Shown here: piece after piece, positions 3,187 through 45,592 of the stretch
Position numbering within the stretch: the stretch's first letter is position 1
Layout of the letters: each line of letters starts with the position of its first letter
From: Luteitalea sp.
Lineage (GTDB): Bacteria; Acidobacteriota; Vicinamibacteria; Vicinamibacterales; Vicinamibacteraceae
Direction: 5' to 3'
NCBI GenBank assembly: GCA_009377495.1
Contig: WHTZ01000003.1
Coordinates: 1-64,000, forward strand
Length of the DNA: 64,000 nt
The notes under the pieces: model-generated
Seen by the model: only the letters and a program-made list of their open reading frames with translations
Told to the model about the DNA's origin: nothing
Databases searched by the model: none
Made by a program: the position numbers and the translations under genes

Positions 3187-3864
3187 TTACGGCCGAAAGG
3201 TTGGCTTGTTCACGCTCCTGGCCTTGGCTTGCTCGGCGCGCTTCTCCTGGGTCTGTTTCTGTTGACGCGCGATTTCTCGCTGGGGAGCCTCTTGCTCGTC
3301 CAGCCGGACCGCTTCGAGGGTTGCGGTTCGTGCCAGGGCACCCAGTCGCTTTGAAGACACCACCAGCCCAAACGTGGACGGGTAGGAGGAGCGGAAGAGA
3401 GTGAGCGCGTATCGCGGGTCTTCCCAACGCGCCTCGACCTTGTCGCTGTCGTCAGAGACCTGGAACAACACGGGCGTGATCTCGGTGGCGGGCAGCGTTG
3501 CGACGCCGTACTTCGCCGAAATAGCGTCGACCACGTCTGCAGCCGTCAGCCCTTTGGTCCGATCTCGGTCATAGCTGACCACCATGCGATAAAGCTGGCC
3601 GTTGTAGAAGTTGAAAAGCACTTTCCTCACTGACTCTTGTTGCGGCGAAGAGCTGAGGGCGCGTGGAGGCAGCCACATCAGCTCTTGAATCAAGTGCGGA
3701 CGCCGATGCAGCACGTGCCCCTCAGGCGTGAGGCCCGTCTGCTCCGCGACGGAGACCAAGCTCATGCCTAGTTGAAAGTCCCGGTACCTGGACAGATCTT
3801 GGGCATAGATCGATGGCGTCGAAATCAGGACCCAAGCGATGGACATTGTGAGTATGCGAGTCAT
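3187..3864 (-). CDS. Secreted hypothetical protein
   Basis: 225 residues when started at the ATG at 3864, which has an AGAAGGAG ribosome-binding site and begins a clear Sec signal peptide (hydrophobic stretch ending SIYAQ). The frame stays open further upstream, but that part overlaps the preceding gene and has no signal peptide. The mature part has no motif I recognise; the C-terminal 40 residues are rich in Gln, Arg, Lys and Glu, probably a charged helix. Its ATG overlaps the stop of the upstream small membrane protein (ATGA), so the two are translationally coupled and probably act together at the envelope. Function unknown. Confidence 0.75.
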   Translation of the reverse strand: MTRILTMSIAWVLISTPSIYAQDLSRYRDFQLGMSLVSVAEQTGLTPEGHVLHRRPHLIQELMWLPPRALSSSPQQESVRKVLFNFYNGQLYRMVVSYDRDRTKGLTAADVVDAISAKYGVATLPATEITPVLFQVSDDSDKVEARWEDPRYALTLFRSSYPSTFGLVVSSKRLGALARTATLEAVRLDEQEAPQREIARQQKQTQEKRAEQAKARSVNKPTFRP

Positions 3865-4085
3865 CGTTCTCCTTCTGACCGTGTCTCGGCCTGATGCAGC
3901 ACCTCGGCCATCGTGCGAGAGGGTCTCTGCCACAACATGAAGATGATTGCCGGAACCATGCCCCACACCACGAGCAGGAGCACGCCCGAGGCGAACGACA
4001 TTGGCGCCTCGAGCGCCGCGAACAGTCCGAGCACGACGACGAGCCACACGAGAATCATCCCCTTACGGCTGAGTAGCTTCGACAT
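3861..4085 (-). CDS. Small two-helix membrane protein
   Basis: 74 residues with two predicted membrane helices: roughly residues 9-33 (GMILVWLVVVLGLFAALE region) and 33-52 (GVLLLVVWGMVPAIIFML region), then a polar cytosolic tail. Its stop overlaps the start of the secreted protein downstream (ATGA), which supports real translation. No family recognised. A helper or anchor for the coupled secreted protein is the simplest reading. Confidence 0.65.
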   Translation of the reverse strand: MSKLLSRKGMILVWLVVVLGLFAALEAPMSFASGVLLLVVWGMVPAIIFMLWQRPSRTMAEVLHQAETRSEGER

Positions 4086-38464: not shown

Positions 38465-38500
38465 CTCGGCCCTCGCCCCTGGCACCTCGCCCCTCTTTTA
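38465..38500 (-). repeat. G-rich tract after lipoprotein gene
   Basis: On the minus strand the sequence after the stop reads AAGAGGGGCGAGGTGCCAGG then GGCGAGGGCCGAG. Same purine-rich design as the tracts at 13931, 19800, 52678 and 60611. Confidence 0.5.
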
Positions 38501-39223
38501 GAGCGCTGGCTGTTCGATGTCAATCGGCACGTTGTATTCGTACGCGACCTGCGACTTCATGTCGAAGAGGCCCGTACGCGTTTCCATCTCCGTTCGCGCC
38601 GGCAACCCGTCATCCGTGCGCACCCACGCTTTGCCTGTCCCGTCGAAGATCATGCCGAGCGCTTTCCACTGGAATCGGAACGTGTAGGCGGATGATGTGA
38701 CGCCACTTGCGCTGTCCGTGCCAACCAGTTGCACGTCGGTGATCCCGCTGGCAAGCATCTGCGTGAGGTCGGCGGAGGGCTTCGCTGCGGATGCGCGGTC
38801 GGCTGCTTGCCACGTGCCATTGGCATGCAGGTACGTCTTGCCCTCGATCGCGACGATCTCGCCGGACAGTCCGCCGCGCCGCCATTTCACACGGGCTCGA
38901 TCCGGTGCTGCGTGCTCGGAGATCCGCACCATCGGCTGAATGGTGAGTCCAATGTTGGTCGTAACCGTGGACTTATCGGTCAAGCGATAGGGATACGCCG
39001 TCCGGAGCTTGTCAAAGGCCCGGAGAAGCGCTTTGTGCGTAGGATCTGCAGCCGTGCGCGCCGCCTCTGCATGCGAGGCAGGCTGGGCCTGGGCGGATGC
39101 CGCGTCGCGGCGGAGCGCCTGCACCTGCTCTTGCCGCGGGTCTTGACCGCAGCCAGGCAGCAACAGCGCGACCGTGACCAACAACGTATGCGTTTTCCAC
39201 GTCCGATTAGCCGGCAGCCTCAT
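38498..39223 (-). CDS. Lipoprotein of LolA-like appearance
   Basis: 241 residues from the ATG at 39223 (ACGGAG ahead). The signal ends LLLPGC, a lipobox with Cys25 as acylation site. The mature part has a Gln/Ala-rich linker and then a mostly beta domain (IVAIEGKTYLHANGTWQAAD; SSAYTFRFQWKALGMIFDGT; MKSQVAYEYNVPIDIEQPAL) that resembles the half-barrel of LolA/LppX/DUF-type lipoproteins; I would not assign more. It ends the same-strand run after the thioredoxin-like gene. Confidence 0.75.
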   Translation of the reverse strand: MRLPANRTWKTHTLLVTVALLLPGCGQDPRQEQVQALRRDAASAQAQPASHAEAARTAADPTHKALLRAFDKLRTAYPYRLTDKSTVTTNIGLTIQPMVRISEHAAPDRARVKWRRGGLSGEIVAIEGKTYLHANGTWQAADRASAAKPSADLTQMLASGITDVQLVGTDSASGVTSSAYTFRFQWKALGMIFDGTGKAWVRTDDGLPARTEMETRTGLFDMKSQVAYEYNVPIDIEQPAL

Positions 39224-39294
39224 AACCCGCTCCGTGAACGGCCGCGCGCCATGACCATTGCGGCAGCCGCGCTCCTTGGGCCGCCCCTTGCGCC

Positions 39295-39798
39295 TCACCG
39301 TAAGCGTTTCAGCACCTCGGCTTCTTCATCGGCCTGGAGCCTGCCGATCCAAGAGTCGGTCACCTCGCCCTTGTTGTTGACCAGAATCAACGTCGGTGTG
39401 CCCACGACGTTCAGGGAGCTCAGCGGGTGTTGTCTGACCTCCTTGATCGAAACCTTGAGGGAGTCGAGATACTGGCGTGCTTCGCCGATCTCCTGAGGCA
39501 GGACCGCGATCAGTTGCACGTCGCTCTTGTTGGCGGTCTCTTTCACGAGCTGCTGATAAAAGGGCGCACTCTCCGTGCAGAATCCGCAACCGACCGCGAG
39601 GGCCAGGACCAGCGTCTGCTTGCTCTTTTCCCACTGCACCTCGTCCAGCGAAACCTTCGTTCCGGCCGCGATCTCCGGCTGCCCAGCGTTACGCGGACTG
39701 AGCACGAACATCTGGAGGAGAATCACCCCGAGGAACAGGGCCACGACGATGATGGCGACGTTGGCGACAACCTCGAGCTTCTTGGCGAGACCGCTCAT
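39295..39798 (-). CDS. Membrane-tethered thioredoxin-like protein (CGFC)
   Basis: 167 residues from the ATG at 39798 (AGGATG in front). One membrane helix (VANVAIIVVALFLGVILLQM, residues 11-30) places a thioredoxin fold in the periplasm. The active site is CGFC (71-74), and the cis-proline is in VVGTPTLILVN. The CGFC dipeptide and ResA/TlpA-like layout leave oxidase or reductase roles open. It lies directly downstream of two secreted six-cysteine peptides, beyond a terminator, which makes it a good candidate for handling their disulfides. Confidence 0.85.
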   Translation of the reverse strand: MSGLAKKLEVVANVAIIVVALFLGVILLQMFVLSPRNAGQPEIAAGTKVSLDEVQWEKSKQTLVLALAVGCGFCTESAPFYQQLVKETANKSDVQLIAVLPQEIGEARQYLDSLKVSIKEVRQHPLSSLNVVGTPTLILVNNKGEVTDSWIGRLQADEEAEVLKRLR

Positions 39799-39865
39799 AT
39801 GCCCATCCTGGAAGAGAGTTGAGGGGCTTGATTCTAATGCCTTCGAGGAAGCGTTGACAAGTGAG

Positions 39866-39928
39866 CAGAAAAGAAAGGAGGCATCGCTCAGAACGCTGGG
39901 AGGAGTGCTCACAGGTCTGAGCGATGCC
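39866..39928 (-). terminator. Rho-independent terminator after six-cysteine peptide genes
   Basis: A perfect 13-bp stem GGCATCGCTCAGA (39880-39892) / TCTGAGCGATGCC (39916-39928), 23-base loop, followed on the minus strand by TCCTTTCTTTTCT. It ends the peptide transcript 22 bp after the second peptide gene and before the thioredoxin-like gene. Confidence 0.75.
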
Positions 39929-39949
39929 CACGGCTTCACCGGTAAGCGT

Positions 39950-40198
39950 TTACCCGGTGATGATGCACAGGACGCCGCACAGGATTTCCAGTGCGGCAAC
40001 GCCCGCACCGCAGACGATCGAGCCGATGCCGCCCGGATTGGTCAGCAAGCAGTACTGCATGTTTGCCAGCGTGACCTCGATACACTGCGCACGGCAAATG
40101 GGCTGCTGTGCGAAGGCAGGTACCGCAAACACCACACCTACCAACGCAACCAACATCAGCAGCCTGAACGCGAGCCCCTTGATTTCAGCTTTGGTCAT
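39950..40198 (-). CDS. Secreted six-cysteine peptide A
   Basis: 82-residue precursor. Signal peptide (LLMLVALVGVVFAVPAFA, cleavage before QQ) and a mature peptide of about 52 residues with six cysteines spaced C-x3-C-x10-C-x12-C-x10-C-x3-C, starting CRAQC and ending CGVLC. The spacing is symmetric and identical to peptide B upstream although most other residues differ. Twin CX3C spacing recalls alpha-hairpinin and twin-CX3C proteins, but I know no bacterial family with this pattern. GGGGGTGG serves as ribosome-binding site. Likely an exported disulfide-bonded peptide; antimicrobial, signalling or structural roles are all open. Confidence 0.8.
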   Translation of the reverse strand: MTKAEIKGLAFRLLMLVALVGVVFAVPAFAQQPICRAQCIEVTLANMQYCLLTNPGGIGSIVCGAGVAALEILCGVLCIITG

Positions 40199-40278
40199 TG
40201 TCCACCCCCGGATTCAAACCGGTGATAACAGGCTAAACGTGAGCCTCTCTTGAGTTCACCGTTCCTCGTGTGGGCGCC

Positions 40279-40509
40279 TTACCAGCAGAAGGCGTCACAG
40301 AGGATTTCCTGGTTGTAGGCAGCCCATCCACAAAGTATCCCGTACGTCCCGCTGGCGTTGCCGAGCGCACAGTACGACAGGGCGACCTGATACTTCTGGA
40401 TGCACCCCTGGAAACACAGTTCTCGCACTTGGGCGTACGCGGGTACAGCGAACACCGCGCCGACCAACATGACCAGCATTACTAACTTGAGCAAAAGCGT
40501 TTTGGTCAT
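40279..40509 (-). CDS. Secreted six-cysteine peptide B
   Basis: 76-residue precursor from the ATG at 40509 (AGGAGG 8 bases ahead; an upstream GTG would swallow that site). Signal peptide (LVMLVMLVGAVFAVPAYA) is close to that of peptide A. The mature peptide starts CFQGC, ends CDAFCW, and has the same C-x3-C-x10-C-x12-C-x10-C-x3-C spacing. A and B are tandem paralogs 80 bp apart with no terminator between, so they should be co-transcribed. Confidence 0.8.
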   Translation of the reverse strand: MTKTLLLKLVMLVMLVGAVFAVPAYAQVRELCFQGCIQKYQVALSYCALGNASGTYGILCGWAAYNQEILCDAFCW

Positions 40510-40792
40510 TTTGTCATCCTCCTGTTGAGCTAACGGCACGAATCACACCTCACTGGAGCGCTGGTCACATCTGACGACAGACCGCCGCTCGTCGACGTTT
40601 CCAGCGCGTGTGACCCGGTGTAGGCGACGCAAAGCTGAACGCGGGGCGACCTCGTCCATGCTGCTCACCCGTGCAGAGTCCAACACCAGCGTCCCGGGGC
40701 CTCGTGACCCTCGCCCACGACGGGAAAGAGCCTCTGGCGTCGGTCGGCCCACCGGAGTGGGCGCCTGCCTCAGATCTGTCGACCTAAGGCGT

Positions 40793-40894
40793 TCAGAGCG
40801 GGAGCGCGCCGCCCAGCAGACCCGAGACGATCCCGAGCACCGGCTCCAACAGACCGAAAACGAGGGCAAGGATTGTGTCAAGCGGCAGAGCCAT
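40793..40894 (-). CDS. 33-residue hydrophobic peptide
   Basis: Opens at the ATG at 40894 with AAAGGAGG 7 bases upstream (another ATG in the same frame at 40900 would be too close). Sequence: MALPLDTILALVFGLLEPVL then GIVSGLLGGALPL, one hydrophobic, Gly/Leu-rich amphipathic helix, no cysteine, no cleavable signal. Could be a small membrane protein or a leaderless bacteriocin-like peptide. Upstream of the six-cysteine peptide genes on the same strand (283 bp away). Confidence 0.5.
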   Translation of the reverse strand: MALPLDTILALVFGLLEPVLGIVSGLLGGALPL

Positions 40895-41557: not shown

Positions 41558-42643
41558 ATGCCTTCCTCGATGCCTGTTTCCACTGACGCTGTAGCGGCGC
41601 GCGAAGCACTGGACCGCTGGACGCGCGAAATCGTGCAATGGCACTTCGACCCGGCCACGGGAGCGCCATTTTGGCTGGAGTACGCGAGCCGCCTCGATTG
41701 GGATCCGCGGCTCGAGGTTCGCACCTACGACGATCTGGCGAAGTTTGGCGCCTTTCAAGATGACTGGCTACGTGGCGGCCCCGTCCGCCGCTGGGTGCCC
41801 AAGGCCTACGTCGGACGTCCCGTGTCGCTGTTCGAGACCGGCGGCAGCACCGGGGTTCCAAAATCTCGGATCAGCGTCGAGGATTTCCGCACCGATTACG
41901 AACAGTTCAGCGAGACCCTGCCCGACTGGGCCTTCCCGGCAGGCGGCGACTGGTTGGCCATCGGTCCGACGGGGCCACGTCGCCTCCGACTCGCGGTAGA
42001 GCACCTCGCGCAGCATCGCGGCGGCATCTGCTTCATGGTGGACCTCGATCCTCGTTGGGTCATCAAGCTGATCAAAAGGCGTGCGTTCGACGAGGCGGAG
42101 CGCTATAAGCAGCACGTCATCGATCAGGCGCTCACGCTGCTGCGCGCGCACGACACGATTCGGTGCCTCTTCACCACGCCGAAGCTGCTCGAGGCGCTCT
42201 GCGAGAAGGTGTCGCTGCGCAAGATCGGGATCACGGGCGTGTTCTGCGGTGGGACCGAGATGACGCCGCAATTCCACCGCTTCGCGGTCGAAGAGCTGCT
42301 CGAAGGCGTTTACTTTGCGCCCACCTACGGCAACACCCTGATGGGACTCGCCGTGCACAAGCCGGTCGTGCCCGAGGACAACTACGCCGTCATCTATTAC
42401 CCGCCTTCGCCCCGCGCGATGATGGAGGTCGTCGATCCCGATCGGCCGGACCGGGTGGTGGCGTACGGCGAGACAGGCCGGGTGCGTCTGACGACGCTCA
42501 CGAAAGAGTTCTTCATGCCCCGCTTGCTGGAGCGCGACGAGGCGGAGCGCGAGCCGCCGTGCGAGCGCTATCCGTGGGACGGCGTCCGCAACGTGCGCCC
42601 GTTTTCACGATTTCAGGCAACAGTCGTCGAGGGAGTCTACTAG
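41558..42643 (+). CDS. LuxE/EhpF-like adenylating enzyme lacking the C-terminal domain
   Basis: 361 residues. The P-loop-like FETGGSTGVPKS (92-103), GVFCGGTEMTPQFHRF and FAPTYGNTLMG, and a late TGRVRLTTLTKEFF match the large domain of ANL enzymes, but there is no room for the usual C-terminal domain. Two known truncated types do this: LuxE acyl-protein synthetases and EhpF of phenazine biosynthesis. Predicted job: activate a carboxylate as acyl-adenylate and hand it to the aldehyde dehydrogenase coded next. Substrate unknown. The TAG stop is the first three bases of MITE copy 2. Confidence 0.8.
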   Translation: MPSSMPVSTDAVAAREALDRWTREIVQWHFDPATGAPFWLEYASRLDWDPRLEVRTYDDLAKFGAFQDDWLRGGPVRRWVPKAYVGRPVSLFETGGSTGVPKSRISVEDFRTDYEQFSETLPDWAFPAGGDWLAIGPTGPRRLRLAVEHLAQHRGGICFMVDLDPRWVIKLIKRRAFDEAERYKQHVIDQALTLLRAHDTIRCLFTTPKLLEALCEKVSLRKIGITGVFCGGTEMTPQFHRFAVEELLEGVYFAPTYGNTLMGLAVHKPVVPEDNYAVIYYPPSPRAMMEVVDPDRPDRVVAYGETGRVRLTTLTKEFFMPRLLERDEAEREPPCERYPWDGVRNVRPFSRFQATVVEGVY

Positions 42644-42804
42644 TGTCCTGTCTCAGCGATTCGCGACATAATTCCCGGGCGGGGCATCCCGCCTGGCTTC
42701 GTTGCTCGTCGGTCAAATACGGCCTGTATGCTCCCTCCTCGCGCCTCGCCAGCCGGGCGCCGCGCTCCGGGACTCATGCCACGAATCACTGAGACAGGAC
42801 ACTA
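42641..42804. mobile_element. 164-bp MITE-like element, copy 2
   Basis: Same length and ends as the copy at 35969, about seven differences by eye. CTAG at both boundaries. It fills exactly the gap between the adenylating enzyme and the aldehyde dehydrogenase: its left TAG is the upstream stop codon and the next ATG is 4 bases beyond its right end. The near-palindromic sequence would form a long hairpin in the operon mRNA. Confidence 0.9.
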
Positions 42805-42807
42805 GCG

Positions 42808-44277
42808 ATGTTGCACATTCCCTTGCTGAGGCATGGCGTATCGTACAGGAGCCTCGACGAGGCACACGTTCCGCATCACCGCACTGGACAGCCATTCGTC
42901 GCGGTGAGTCAAGCCAACGTGGGGCTCATTCGCCGCGACCTGTTGCCGAGCCACCAGGCGGCCGCACGGCGGGCGCTGGCCACGCTGTCGGCGGAGCACC
43001 TGCTCGCGATCTGCCAGGAAGCCGCCGATCGGTTCCTTCACGGCACGCTCCCGATTGGCGACGATCAGCAGACGCCGCAGGACTACATCGAGCAAGTCTC
43101 CGCGACCACGGGGATGCCCTATGTGCTCGCGCGGCGCAATATGGGCCGAATTGCCGATGTGCTCCTCCAGATGCGGCAGATCATCGGCGGCCTGACACGC
43201 CAGCTCGGTCTGCCGGTTCTCGATACTGGGGTCGGCGAGGTCGCGGGGCAAGTCTTGAGCTTCTTCCCCCGCACCCAGGCGCTGGCCGTCGTCCTGCCGA
43301 GCAACTCGCCGGGCGTGCACGCGCTCTGGACGCCCGCTGTGCCGCTGAAGACGCCGCTCGTCTTGAAGCCCGGCAGCGCCGAGCTCTGGACGCCGTTCCG
43401 GATTGCGCAGGCGTTCATCGCGTCGGGCTGCCCAGTCGAGGCGTTCAGCTACTACCCGTCGGACCACGCGGGCGCGGGCGAGATCATCCGCCAGTGCGGG
43501 CGCTCGATGTTCTTTGGCGATGCCTCGTCGGTGGGCATCTTTGGCGGAGATCCGAGGGTCGAGCTGCACGGGCCCGGCTACACGAAGATTCTGATCGGCT
43601 CGGATCAGATTGAGCGCTGGACGGACCACTTGGACCTGATGGTGGCCTCTATTGCCGACAATGGTGGCCGTTCGTGCGTGAACGCTTCCGGCATCTGGGT
43701 GCCCGCACGAGGTCGCGAGATCGCCGAAGCGCTCGCCTCACGCCTCGCGGCGATCGTGCCGCGGGAAGCAGACGACCCGGAAGCCCGGATCGCGCCCTTC
43801 ACCGATCCACGCGTGGCTACCTGGGTCGATAACCAGATCGAAGCGGGGCTGCGGGAGCCGGGTGCGATCGACCTCACGGCTGGTCACCGCCGCGGCCCGC
43901 GGGCGGTCCAGGAGCACGGATGCACGTACATGCTACCGACCATCGTCTACTGCGATAGTCCCGGGCATCCGCTGGCGAACCGCGAGTTTCTTTTTCCTTT
44001 CGCGAGTGTCGTCGAGATGGGACCTGAGGAGATGGCGCGGTTGCCCGAGGCCATGGGCCCCACTCTGGTCGTCACTGCCTTGACGTCGGACCGTGGGCTG
44101 CTCGAGCGTCTCATCGCGTCGTCGCTGGTCGATCGCCTGAATGTCGGGCCCATCGCGACCAACCAGATCGCGTGGGATCAGCCGCACGAAGGTAACCTCT
44201 TCGAACATCTGTACGCGCGGCGCGCCTTTCAGCAGACCGCTCCGGCCCGCGTGAGCGCGACCGGGAGCGCCGCCTGA
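42808..44277 (+). CDS. Aldehyde dehydrogenase-family reductase (LuxC/EhpG-like)
   Basis: 489 residues with the aldehyde dehydrogenase fold: AVVLPSNSPGVHALWTPAVP in the nucleotide-binding region, LVLKPGSAELWTPFRIA, MFFGDASSVGIFGG, and catalytic Cys290 in DNGGRSCVNASG. The NSPGVH motif is closer to acyl reductases than to classical aldehyde oxidisers. Next to a truncated adenylating enzyme, reduction of an activated carboxylate to an aldehyde is the likely reaction. The ribosome-binding site is poor because the MITE ends 4 bp upstream. Confidence 0.82.
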   Translation: MLHIPLLRHGVSYRSLDEAHVPHHRTGQPFVAVSQANVGLIRRDLLPSHQAAARRALATLSAEHLLAICQEAADRFLHGTLPIGDDQQTPQDYIEQVSATTGMPYVLARRNMGRIADVLLQMRQIIGGLTRQLGLPVLDTGVGEVAGQVLSFFPRTQALAVVLPSNSPGVHALWTPAVPLKTPLVLKPGSAELWTPFRIAQAFIASGCPVEAFSYYPSDHAGAGEIIRQCGRSMFFGDASSVGIFGGDPRVELHGPGYTKILIGSDQIERWTDHLDLMVASIADNGGRSCVNASGIWVPARGREIAEALASRLAAIVPREADDPEARIAPFTDPRVATWVDNQIEAGLREPGAIDLTAGHRRGPRAVQEHGCTYMLPTIVYCDSPGHPLANREFLFPFASVVEMGPEEMARLPEAMGPTLVVTALTSDRGLLERLIASSLVDRLNVGPIATNQIAWDQPHEGNLFEHLYARRAFQQTAPARVSATGSAA

Positions 44278-44278
44278 C

Positions 44279-45592
44279 GTGCGGGTGCTCGCCATTACCG
44301 CGGGCGCCGGCGGCATGTATTGCGGGAGCTGTCTGCGCGACAACGCCCTCGCGGCCGAGCTCCTGGCACGCGGCCACGACGTGGTGCTCTTGCCCGTGTA
44401 CACGCCAACGCGGACAGACGAGCCGAACGTCAGCCGCCACGAGGTGCTCCTCGGCGGCATTAGCGTCTATCTCGAAGACAAGATTCCGCTCTTTCGCTAC
44501 ACGCCGAAGTTCCTCGACCGCCTGTGGGACGCTCCTGCCCTGATCCGTGCCGCCACGTGGCGCGCGGTTAGCACCGATCCGGCGACGCTGGGCGAGATGA
44601 CCGTCTCGATGCTCCGAGGCGAGCACGGGCCGCACCGTAAGGAAGTCGACAAGTTGCTGGATTGGTTGCGCGGTCAGCCGCAGCCCGATCTAACGATTTT
44701 GCCGAACTCGCTGCTGATCGCGCTCGCAGGCCCGATCGCGCGCGCGACGAGGCGGCCCGTTGGGGTCACGCTGCAGGGAGAGGACTTGTTCCTCGACGGT
44801 CTCGGCGAGCGGTACCGGGCGCAAGCGATCGAGCTCATTAGACGGCAGATCGACACGGTCGACGCATTCTTTGCCGTCAGCGAGTACTATGCGCCGTTCA
44901 TGTCGAGGTACCTCGAGATCCCGCCGCAAAAAGTGCACGTCGTCCCGCTCGGTGTCAGCGTGGACGACTTTCAGCCGCGTGAGGTCGGCCAGCGAGACGT
45001 CCGCCGCATCGGTTTCCTCGCGCGCATCGCGCCCGAAAAGGGCTTGCACGTGCTCTGCGAGGCGTATCAGCAGCTACGGGCGCCTCGCGACGTGACGCAG
45101 GATCTACCGCCCATGCAGCTCGAGGCGGCGGGTTATCTCGCGCCGGAGCACCGTGGTTATTTGGCCGGCATCGAGCGGCAGATGCGTGAAGCAGGCCTCT
45201 CTGCGGAGTTCCGTTATCTCGGGGAGCTCGATCGCTCGGCCAAGATCGAGTTCCTGCGGAGCCTCGATGTGTTTTCCATGCCGGCGACCTACGACGAGCC
45301 GAAAGCCTTGTCGGTGCTCGAGGCCATGGCCAGCGGTGTGCCGGTCGTGCAGCCCCGCTGCGGGACGCTGCCGGAGATCATCGAGAAGACGGGTGGCGGC
45401 CTGCTCGTCGAGCCCGGACGCGTGGATGCGCTGGCCGAAGGGCTTCGCACGGTGTTGCGTGATGCCCCGCTGGCCGCGCGCCTTGGCGCGGCCGGCTTCG
45501 CCGGCGTACGCCGTCATTACAGCGTCTCCCAGATGGCGGATCGCGCGCTGGAGGCCTACGCCGCGGTCATCGGCCGTCGCGTTCTGGCTTAA
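44279..45592 (+). CDS. Glycosyltransferase family 4
   Basis: 437 residues from a GTG 2 bases after the previous stop. GT-B fold: ITAGAGGMYCGSCLRDNALA (glycine-rich acceptor loop), VGVTLQGEDLFLDGLGERY, IGFLARIAPEKGLHVLCEAY (start of donor domain), and the E-x7-E motif Glu340...Glu348 (YDEPKALSVLEAMASG). Retaining transfer from a nucleotide sugar. Its position between a carboxylate-activation/reduction pair and an ABC exporter suggests glycosylation of the same small molecule or lipid. Confidence 0.9.
   Translation: MRVLAITAGAGGMYCGSCLRDNALAAELLARGHDVVLLPVYTPTRTDEPNVSRHEVLLGGISVYLEDKIPLFRYTPKFLDRLWDAPALIRAATWRAVSTDPATLGEMTVSMLRGEHGPHRKEVDKLLDWLRGQPQPDLTILPNSLLIALAGPIARATRRPVGVTLQGEDLFLDGLGERYRAQAIELIRRQIDTVDAFFAVSEYYAPFMSRYLEIPPQKVHVVPLGVSVDDFQPREVGQRDVRRIGFLARIAPEKGLHVLCEAYQQLRAPRDVTQDLPPMQLEAAGYLAPEHRGYLAGIERQMREAGLSAEFRYLGELDRSAKIEFLRSLDVFSMPATYDEPKALSVLEAMASGVPVVQPRCGTLPEIIEKTGGGLLVEPGRVDALAEGLRTVLRDAPLAARLGAAGFAGVRRHYSVSQMADRALEAYAAVIGRRVLA

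Follow-up and report, generated by a model that had tools for sequence, protein, structure and literature searches.

To our knowledge, helical hairpins stapled by several disulfide rungs occur mainly among plant defence peptides and animal toxins. Mirror-placed cysteine motifs also staple two helices in mitochondrial CHCH proteins and small Tims (twin CX3C), eukaryotic chaperones with four cysteines and Mia40-dependent import. Here we analyze the first 64,000 nucleotides of Luteitalea sp. contig WHTZ01000003.1 (hereafter, the window), in which two adjacent genes, A and B, encode small exported peptides with a symmetric six-cysteine pattern. Similar motifs are known from plant alpha-hairpinins and scorpion CS-alpha/alpha peptides (kappa-KTx), whose antiparallel helices carry CX3C pairs with nested Cys1-Cys4 and Cys2-Cys3 bonds (PMC7191063, PMC11591084). 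The published alpha-hairpinin motif is C-X3-C-X4-20-C-X3-C, with a six-cysteine version CX3CX3C...CX3CX3C. Among bacteria, the class IIb gallocin A of Streptococcus gallolyticus comprises two adjacent peptides with few charges, modelled as disulfide-closed helical hairpins, and a third small gene, and its activity requires a thioredoxin-domain protein (PMC10100652). The best explanation of A and B as a whole, to which we give a probability of roughly 0.6, is that they are exported disulfide-ladder hairpins and belong to a bacterial family not described before, whose members keep the ladder while their outward surface is free to vary.

Cysteine ladders and predicted fold

The initial annotation had read A and B as signal-peptide precursors with one shared cysteine spacing, selected for a disulfide-stapled helical hairpin. 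Both open reading frames (ORFs) and the motif were reproduced:

40198..39950, minus strand: peptide A gene, an 82-residue precursor with a mature part of ~52 residues
40509..40279, minus strand: peptide B gene, a 76-residue precursor with a mature part of ~50 residues

The translated mature peptides have identical C-x3-C-x10-C-x12-C-x10-C-x3-C patterns (hereafter, 3-10-12-10-3, and likewise for other spacings). The start codons of B (ATG 40509, preceded by AGGAGGATGACAAA) and A (ATG 40198, preceded by GGGGGTGGACA) both have good ribosome-binding sites, and the precursors carry, by eye, the expected Sec-type signals, with MTK, a hydrophobic core, and AYA followed by QV or AFA followed by QQ. 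A and B have only 3 and 5 charged residues, with grand averages of hydropathy (GRAVY) of +1.04 and +0.35. Both are under purifying selection; when the window genome (G000) is compared with G001, the sole other genome of the genus, the ratio of nonsynonymous to synonymous substitution rates (dN/dS) is 0.32 for A and 0.19 for B. All 12 cysteines of the two peptides (12/12) are kept, their codons showing 3 synonymous and 0 nonsynonymous changes, and the TNPGGIGS stretch of A is identical in both genomes. The common spacing proves little by itself because A and B are paralogs. What goes beyond chance is that other relatives are mirror-symmetric too, at different spacings.

All members in the genus are mirror-symmetric, with differing spacings. 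Besides A and B, the window genome has three dispersed paralogs, on C55 and C25 (3-6-18-6-3) and at C33:86262 (P5, with eight cysteines in 3-6-3-8-3-6-3). The four members in G001 are the A and B orthologs, P8 (3-6-12-6-3) and a minimal 3-11-3 member. By eye, P8 has a promoter-like site, a ribosome-binding site and a terminator of its own. It corresponds in position to P5, the same GSDH, BlaI and BlaR1 genes lying beside both orthologs, and the difference between the two is exactly one inner cysteine pair, i.e., one whole rung.

Profile searches over ~750 genomes, seeded with the genus members and re-seeded with the exported relatives found, recovered 46 exported ladder ORFs from 26 genomes in seven families of the phylum (f1, f4, f6, f20, f26, f36 and f74); the profile matches were read as ORFs. 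The six-cysteine architectures are 3-10-9/10/11/12-10-3, 3-6-10/11/12/18-6-3 and 3-28-13-28-3, and the others are 3-6-3-8/10-3-6-3, 3-10-17-11/12/13-17-10-3 and 3-11-3. In one member (L166) the rung at 15 is gone from both arms, and another (L078) has kept 10-11-10 and lost only C1-C6. The basic, exported f36 relatives L139-L142, L144 and L148 have just two cysteines, separated by 32 residues and matching precisely C2 and C5 of the ladder, and L140 has alanine at all four other rung positions. An f20 member (L164) has the ladder plus two extra cysteines. Surfaces are not conserved, net charges ranging between -12 and +12 and GRAVY between -2.5 and +1.0. The family would offer a naturally occurring collection of stable helical-hairpin scaffolds whose surfaces can be exchanged.

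In these sequences, cysteines are gained, lost and moved in mirror pairs. Among 17 homolog groups with both arms readable (groups defined by us and not fully independent), the arms are identical in 16, compared with a mean of 3.05 after shuffling; 0 of 200,000 arm shuffles reached 16, which we take as a strong indication and not a formal probability, one ORF tabulation feeding the test itself selecting for symmetry. Mirror pairing is also seen in profile matches read without a symmetry filter.

Homologs of A and B thus exist, are exported and keep their cysteines. What is conserved across the families is the symmetry rule, whereas the exact 3-10-12-10-3 spacing, which the initial annotation had proposed to search for elsewhere, is essentially limited to the genus. 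In a DNA-pattern search of 396 genomes, matches to it outside the genus were nearly all TGC/TTG repeat noise or apparent parts of long ORFs, and the sole one examined as a short exported ORF is a look-alike with extra cysteines in G425. This is L114 (5727..5416), a 103-residue exported protein with the 3-10-12-10-3 positions and several further cysteines. Scans of genome contigs with the A and B ortholog pairs, which reach close relatives only, found no relative, and plasmid records gave no match. Weak hidden Markov model matches (L008, L009, L067, L079, L081, L087, L091, L092, L121 and others) were dropped as signal-peptide-only or unrelated, and L046 (3-9-3) and L058 (3-15-3) as repeat or wrong-frame ORFs. 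All ladder members may share one ancestry, or some may have arisen by convergence, the sequences offering little besides cysteine to compare.

Some members are embellished. Nearly all long eight-cysteine f20 members end in an SPSxP-type tail after the last cysteine (L075, L076, L077, L080, L085, L094, L098, L158 and L161-L163), which could be a processing or sorting signal. L143 continues from its 3-6-10-6-3 ladder into a long tail of Asn-rich repeats (Asn/Met/Gly/Thr). L120 and L171 (G049) are larger exported proteins that begin with a 3-10-11-10-3 ladder as their N-terminal module, the hairpin thus also occurring as a domain.

AlphaFold2 models, built from the two window sequences only, show mature A and B each as two antiparallel helices, with mean predicted local distance difference test (pLDDT) scores of 84.8 and 83.6. 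The helices of the A model span residues 2-23 and 28-51, and the second helix of the B model is kinked. The predicted turns (residues 24-27 in A, 25-28 in B) agree within ~1 residue with the centres of cysteine symmetry (26.5 and 27.5), and the rung offsets 0, 4, 11, 15 and 33 all lie on one helix face. A Foldseek search of the models against PDB gave no confident match, a result that is uninformative for a simple two-helix fold. Since cysteine changes on one arm are mirrored on the other, we strongly infer nested C1-C6, C2-C5 and C3-C4 disulfides within a helical hairpin, and the models and the paired gain and loss among relatives agree with the stapled hairpin first envisaged. Rungs that are gained, lost or slid as pairs would let disulfide connectivity be read from sequence alone.

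The ladder peptides have no significant match in Pfam, NCBIfam, PHROGs or PDB sequences, and literature searches found no description of such a bacterial family, in line with the initial annotation. Like alpha-hairpinins and kappa-KTx, they would have two antiparallel helices with mirror-placed CX3C motifs, and both the models and the paired cysteine changes are compatible with a helix-turn-helix of the alpha-hairpinin type with nested disulfides. Those peptides, however, are eukaryotic and mostly have two disulfides and short arms, their six-cysteine form is not 3-10-n-10-3, and no sequence similarity was found; no significant Pfam, NCBIfam or PDB match pointed to homology. With 34 residues between their CX3C motifs, A and B fall outside the published alpha-hairpinin motif, which only the 3-11-3 member of G001 fits. 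P5 is close in cysteine spacing to the nemertean neurotoxin B-IV (Toxin_13, PF07822, PDB 1vib; PMC6410017), a four-disulfide helical hairpin whose aligned cysteines come near 3-6-3-8-3-6-3. That protein is an animal toxin, the 1vib profile match (E 0.57) and the match of one member to Pfam PF07822 (E 0.26, 11.9 bits versus a cut-off of 21) are not significant, and we read the likeness as convergence. The main ladder architectures differ from small Tim and CHCH proteins in their six to eight cysteines, their Sec signals and their spacing. TIGR04453 (Lepto_8Cys, NCBIfam), which also describes small cysteine-rich bacterial proteins, was the best weak match of the G123 member (E 0.019), and a search of four genomes gave at most 15.8 bits versus the curated cut-off of 34. 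A ribosomally synthesized and post-translationally modified peptide (RiPP) precursor was rejected, given the Sec-type signal and no RiPP enzyme among the neighbouring genes scanned. We therefore file the ladder peptides as a new bacterial family, structurally like alpha-hairpinins, scorpion CS-alpha/alpha peptides and neurotoxin B-IV but passing no sequence-based membership test; it points to an unexplored part of the phylum's secretome.

Peptide operon and thioredoxin gene

A and B are accompanied by the following features:

41102-41074, minus strand: promoter-like sequence (TTGACA-17-TATCTT) ahead of the operon for the three peptides (consensus scan)
40894..40793, minus strand: gene for a 33-residue hydrophobic peptide (MALPLDTILALVFGLLEPVLGIVSGLLGGALPL), first in the operon and upstream of B, with the ribosome-binding site AAAGGAGG
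39866..39929, minus strand: intrinsic terminator closing the peptide operon 3' of A, a long near-perfect stem with a TCCTTTCTTTTCT tail
39860-39831, minus strand: promoter-like sequence (TTGTCA-18-TAGAAT) preceding the thioredoxin gene (consensus scan only)
39295..39798, minus strand: membrane-tethered thioredoxin-fold protein (hereafter, TRX) with CGFC and one N-terminal transmembrane helix (Pfam Redoxin/Thioredoxin)
38498..39223, minus strand: lipoprotein with lipobox LLPGC, not assigned to a family by Pfam or NCBIfam, syntenic in G001 with 66% identity

The block from the 33-residue peptide gene through B, A, the terminator and TRX to the lipoprotein gene is wholly syntenic in G001, where the operon promoter-like site is kept as TTGACA-17-TACCTT and the TRX motif is CRFC. 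The small peptide gene, absent from the initial annotation, is the conserved third gene of the operon; relative to G001 it has in-frame indels and a dN/dS of 0.07 in its core, and the peptide has no Pfam or NCBIfam match. The terminator, the CGFC protein and the lipoprotein were all as first described, the terminator with a folding energy of -36.4 kcal/mol over a 90-nucleotide stretch. Because this terminator follows A and TRX has a promoter-like site of its own, TRX is probably transcribed separately from A and B. The lipoprotein is tied to the peptides by proximity only.

The proposed co-occurrence of CGFC thioredoxins with the peptides was borne out within the order. Within the genus, TRX adjoins only A and B and none of the other paralogs, and no TRX homolog was present in the distant ladder loci first collected. 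Of four TRX homologs outside the genus, three, each from a different further family of the same order (G008, G011 and G017), are immediately followed on their strand by a gene for a cysteine-rich exported product, with gaps of ~40-60 nucleotides in two; the gene order is reversed relative to the window locus. The adjacent genes encode a 3-6-3-10-3-6-3 core in G011, 2-6-3-16-3-6-3 in G008, and one 3-6-3 arm with an irregular second arm in G017. In the G008 gene (L168, ~300-640 nucleotides downstream of the TRX centre), the signal peptide and the cysteine part are in different frames, a break in draft sequence that may reflect an assembly error, a mutation or a frameshift.

Possible functions of the hairpins

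At the level of sequence, the genes, precursors, operon layout, terminator, purifying selection and mirror rule are established. In the mechanism that we propose, A and B would be exported by Sec, fold outside the cytoplasm and be oxidized in the periplasm by DsbA-type enzymes (DsbA-family proteins were found in 4 of 4 genomes tested). The tethered CxFC thioredoxin would make, complete or proofread the disulfides, and would thereby gain a testable substrate. The product would be a rigid two-helix ladder carrying whatever surface selection favours.

For function, the A/B locus is comparable to that of gallocin A in its two adjacent hairpin peptides with few charges, its third small gene and its thioredoxin-domain protein, a layout that spans 38498-40894 of the window and is conserved in G001, with TRX as a separate transcript. 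The comparison is by description and not by sequence, and gallocin A differs in its Gram-positive host and known immunity gene. Because gallocin A is the nearest experimentally studied bacterial analogue, our leading guess, though clearly below even odds, is two-peptide, membrane-active antagonism. Like the gallocin A peptides, the hydrophobic, nearly uncharged A and B would act on other cells' membranes, jointly with the co-transcribed 33-residue peptide.

Several observations weigh against the reading of A and B as exported ladder hairpins with such a partner and role. The AlphaFold2 models were built from two sequences and gave no confident Foldseek match. The ladders of G008 and G017 are imperfectly symmetric, and TRX lies outside the A/B transcript. 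The GG leader, ATP-binding cassette (ABC) exporter and single disulfide per peptide of gallocin A are not shared by A and B, which have Sec-type signals and no ABC exporter in the operon. Most relatives are solitary, with neither a partner peptide nor an immunity gene or TRX beside them, and their charge spans strongly basic and strongly acidic extremes. Because of this solitary occurrence and wide charge range, a single membrane-active role for the whole family is unlikely, and different branches may do different things. We regard as possible, though clearly below even odds, the wider proposal of an unnamed phylum-wide family of Sec-exported ladders, with whole rungs added, removed or slid, diversifying surfaces and a dedicated CxFC thioredoxin in one order, that serve as interbacterial or anti-eukaryote effectors.

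An alternative about as probable as the gallocin-like reading, and likewise clearly below even odds, is that the hairpins are the producer's own envelope proteins, such as a structural spacer, a Spy/CnrX-type chaperone or a stress protein, and not weapons. Most members being single genes without an immunity or export partner, one with its own promoter-like site and terminator, would fit such a role, as would the modular L120 and the repeat-tailed L143. A two-cysteine relative also matches Pfam Metal_resist, albeit below the cut-off (E 0.0027) and not significantly, and housekeeping is not suggested by surfaces that diverge, copy numbers that vary and a patchy distribution within families.

Rather less likely, the hairpins could be secreted to inhibit or bind proteases or other targets, the ladder presenting a tip loop. 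Some alpha-hairpinins built on the CX3C...CX3C logic inhibit trypsin through a reactive Arg that lies between the CX3C motifs (PMC7191063). In f36 the tip loop (C-R/K-A/L/E-IP-L/F/Y-K...) is conserved as other regions diverge, and the invariant TNPGGIGS of A could be read in the same way. Yet the loops of A and B contain no basic residue, loops are wholly different between lineages, and no protease gene is a recurrent neighbour.

Reduced cysteines that bind metal (Cu, Zn) or relay redox with the thioredoxin are improbable. Six to eight thiols per ~50 residues beside a thioredoxin-fold protein would suit this idea, but their export into an oxidising compartment that contains DsbA would not, and the mirror-paired gain, loss and movement of cysteines fits disulfides and not a fixed metal site; a metal site was judged unlikely with the cysteines paired and sliding. 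That the symmetry is a coincidence retained by recent duplication of one gene is almost certainly wrong, for although A and B are paralogs that may have inherited their spacing, relatives with other spacings are symmetric again and both genes are under purifying selection.

Other genes near the ladder loci

In two genomes of genus g90, ladder genes (L108 and L110) occupy the same site, as two tandem copies in one and a single copy in the other, near an isochorismatase-like gene and another gene whose product begins MGTLNxDRYHAAMGDASYKD. Near L114, G425 encodes another small exported protein (3981..3466). In the window, divergent genes at 41558-45592 encode an AMP-binding-like protein, a LuxC-like aldehyde dehydrogenase-family protein and a glycosyltransferase; they are kept in G001, where an ABC transporter comes after them.
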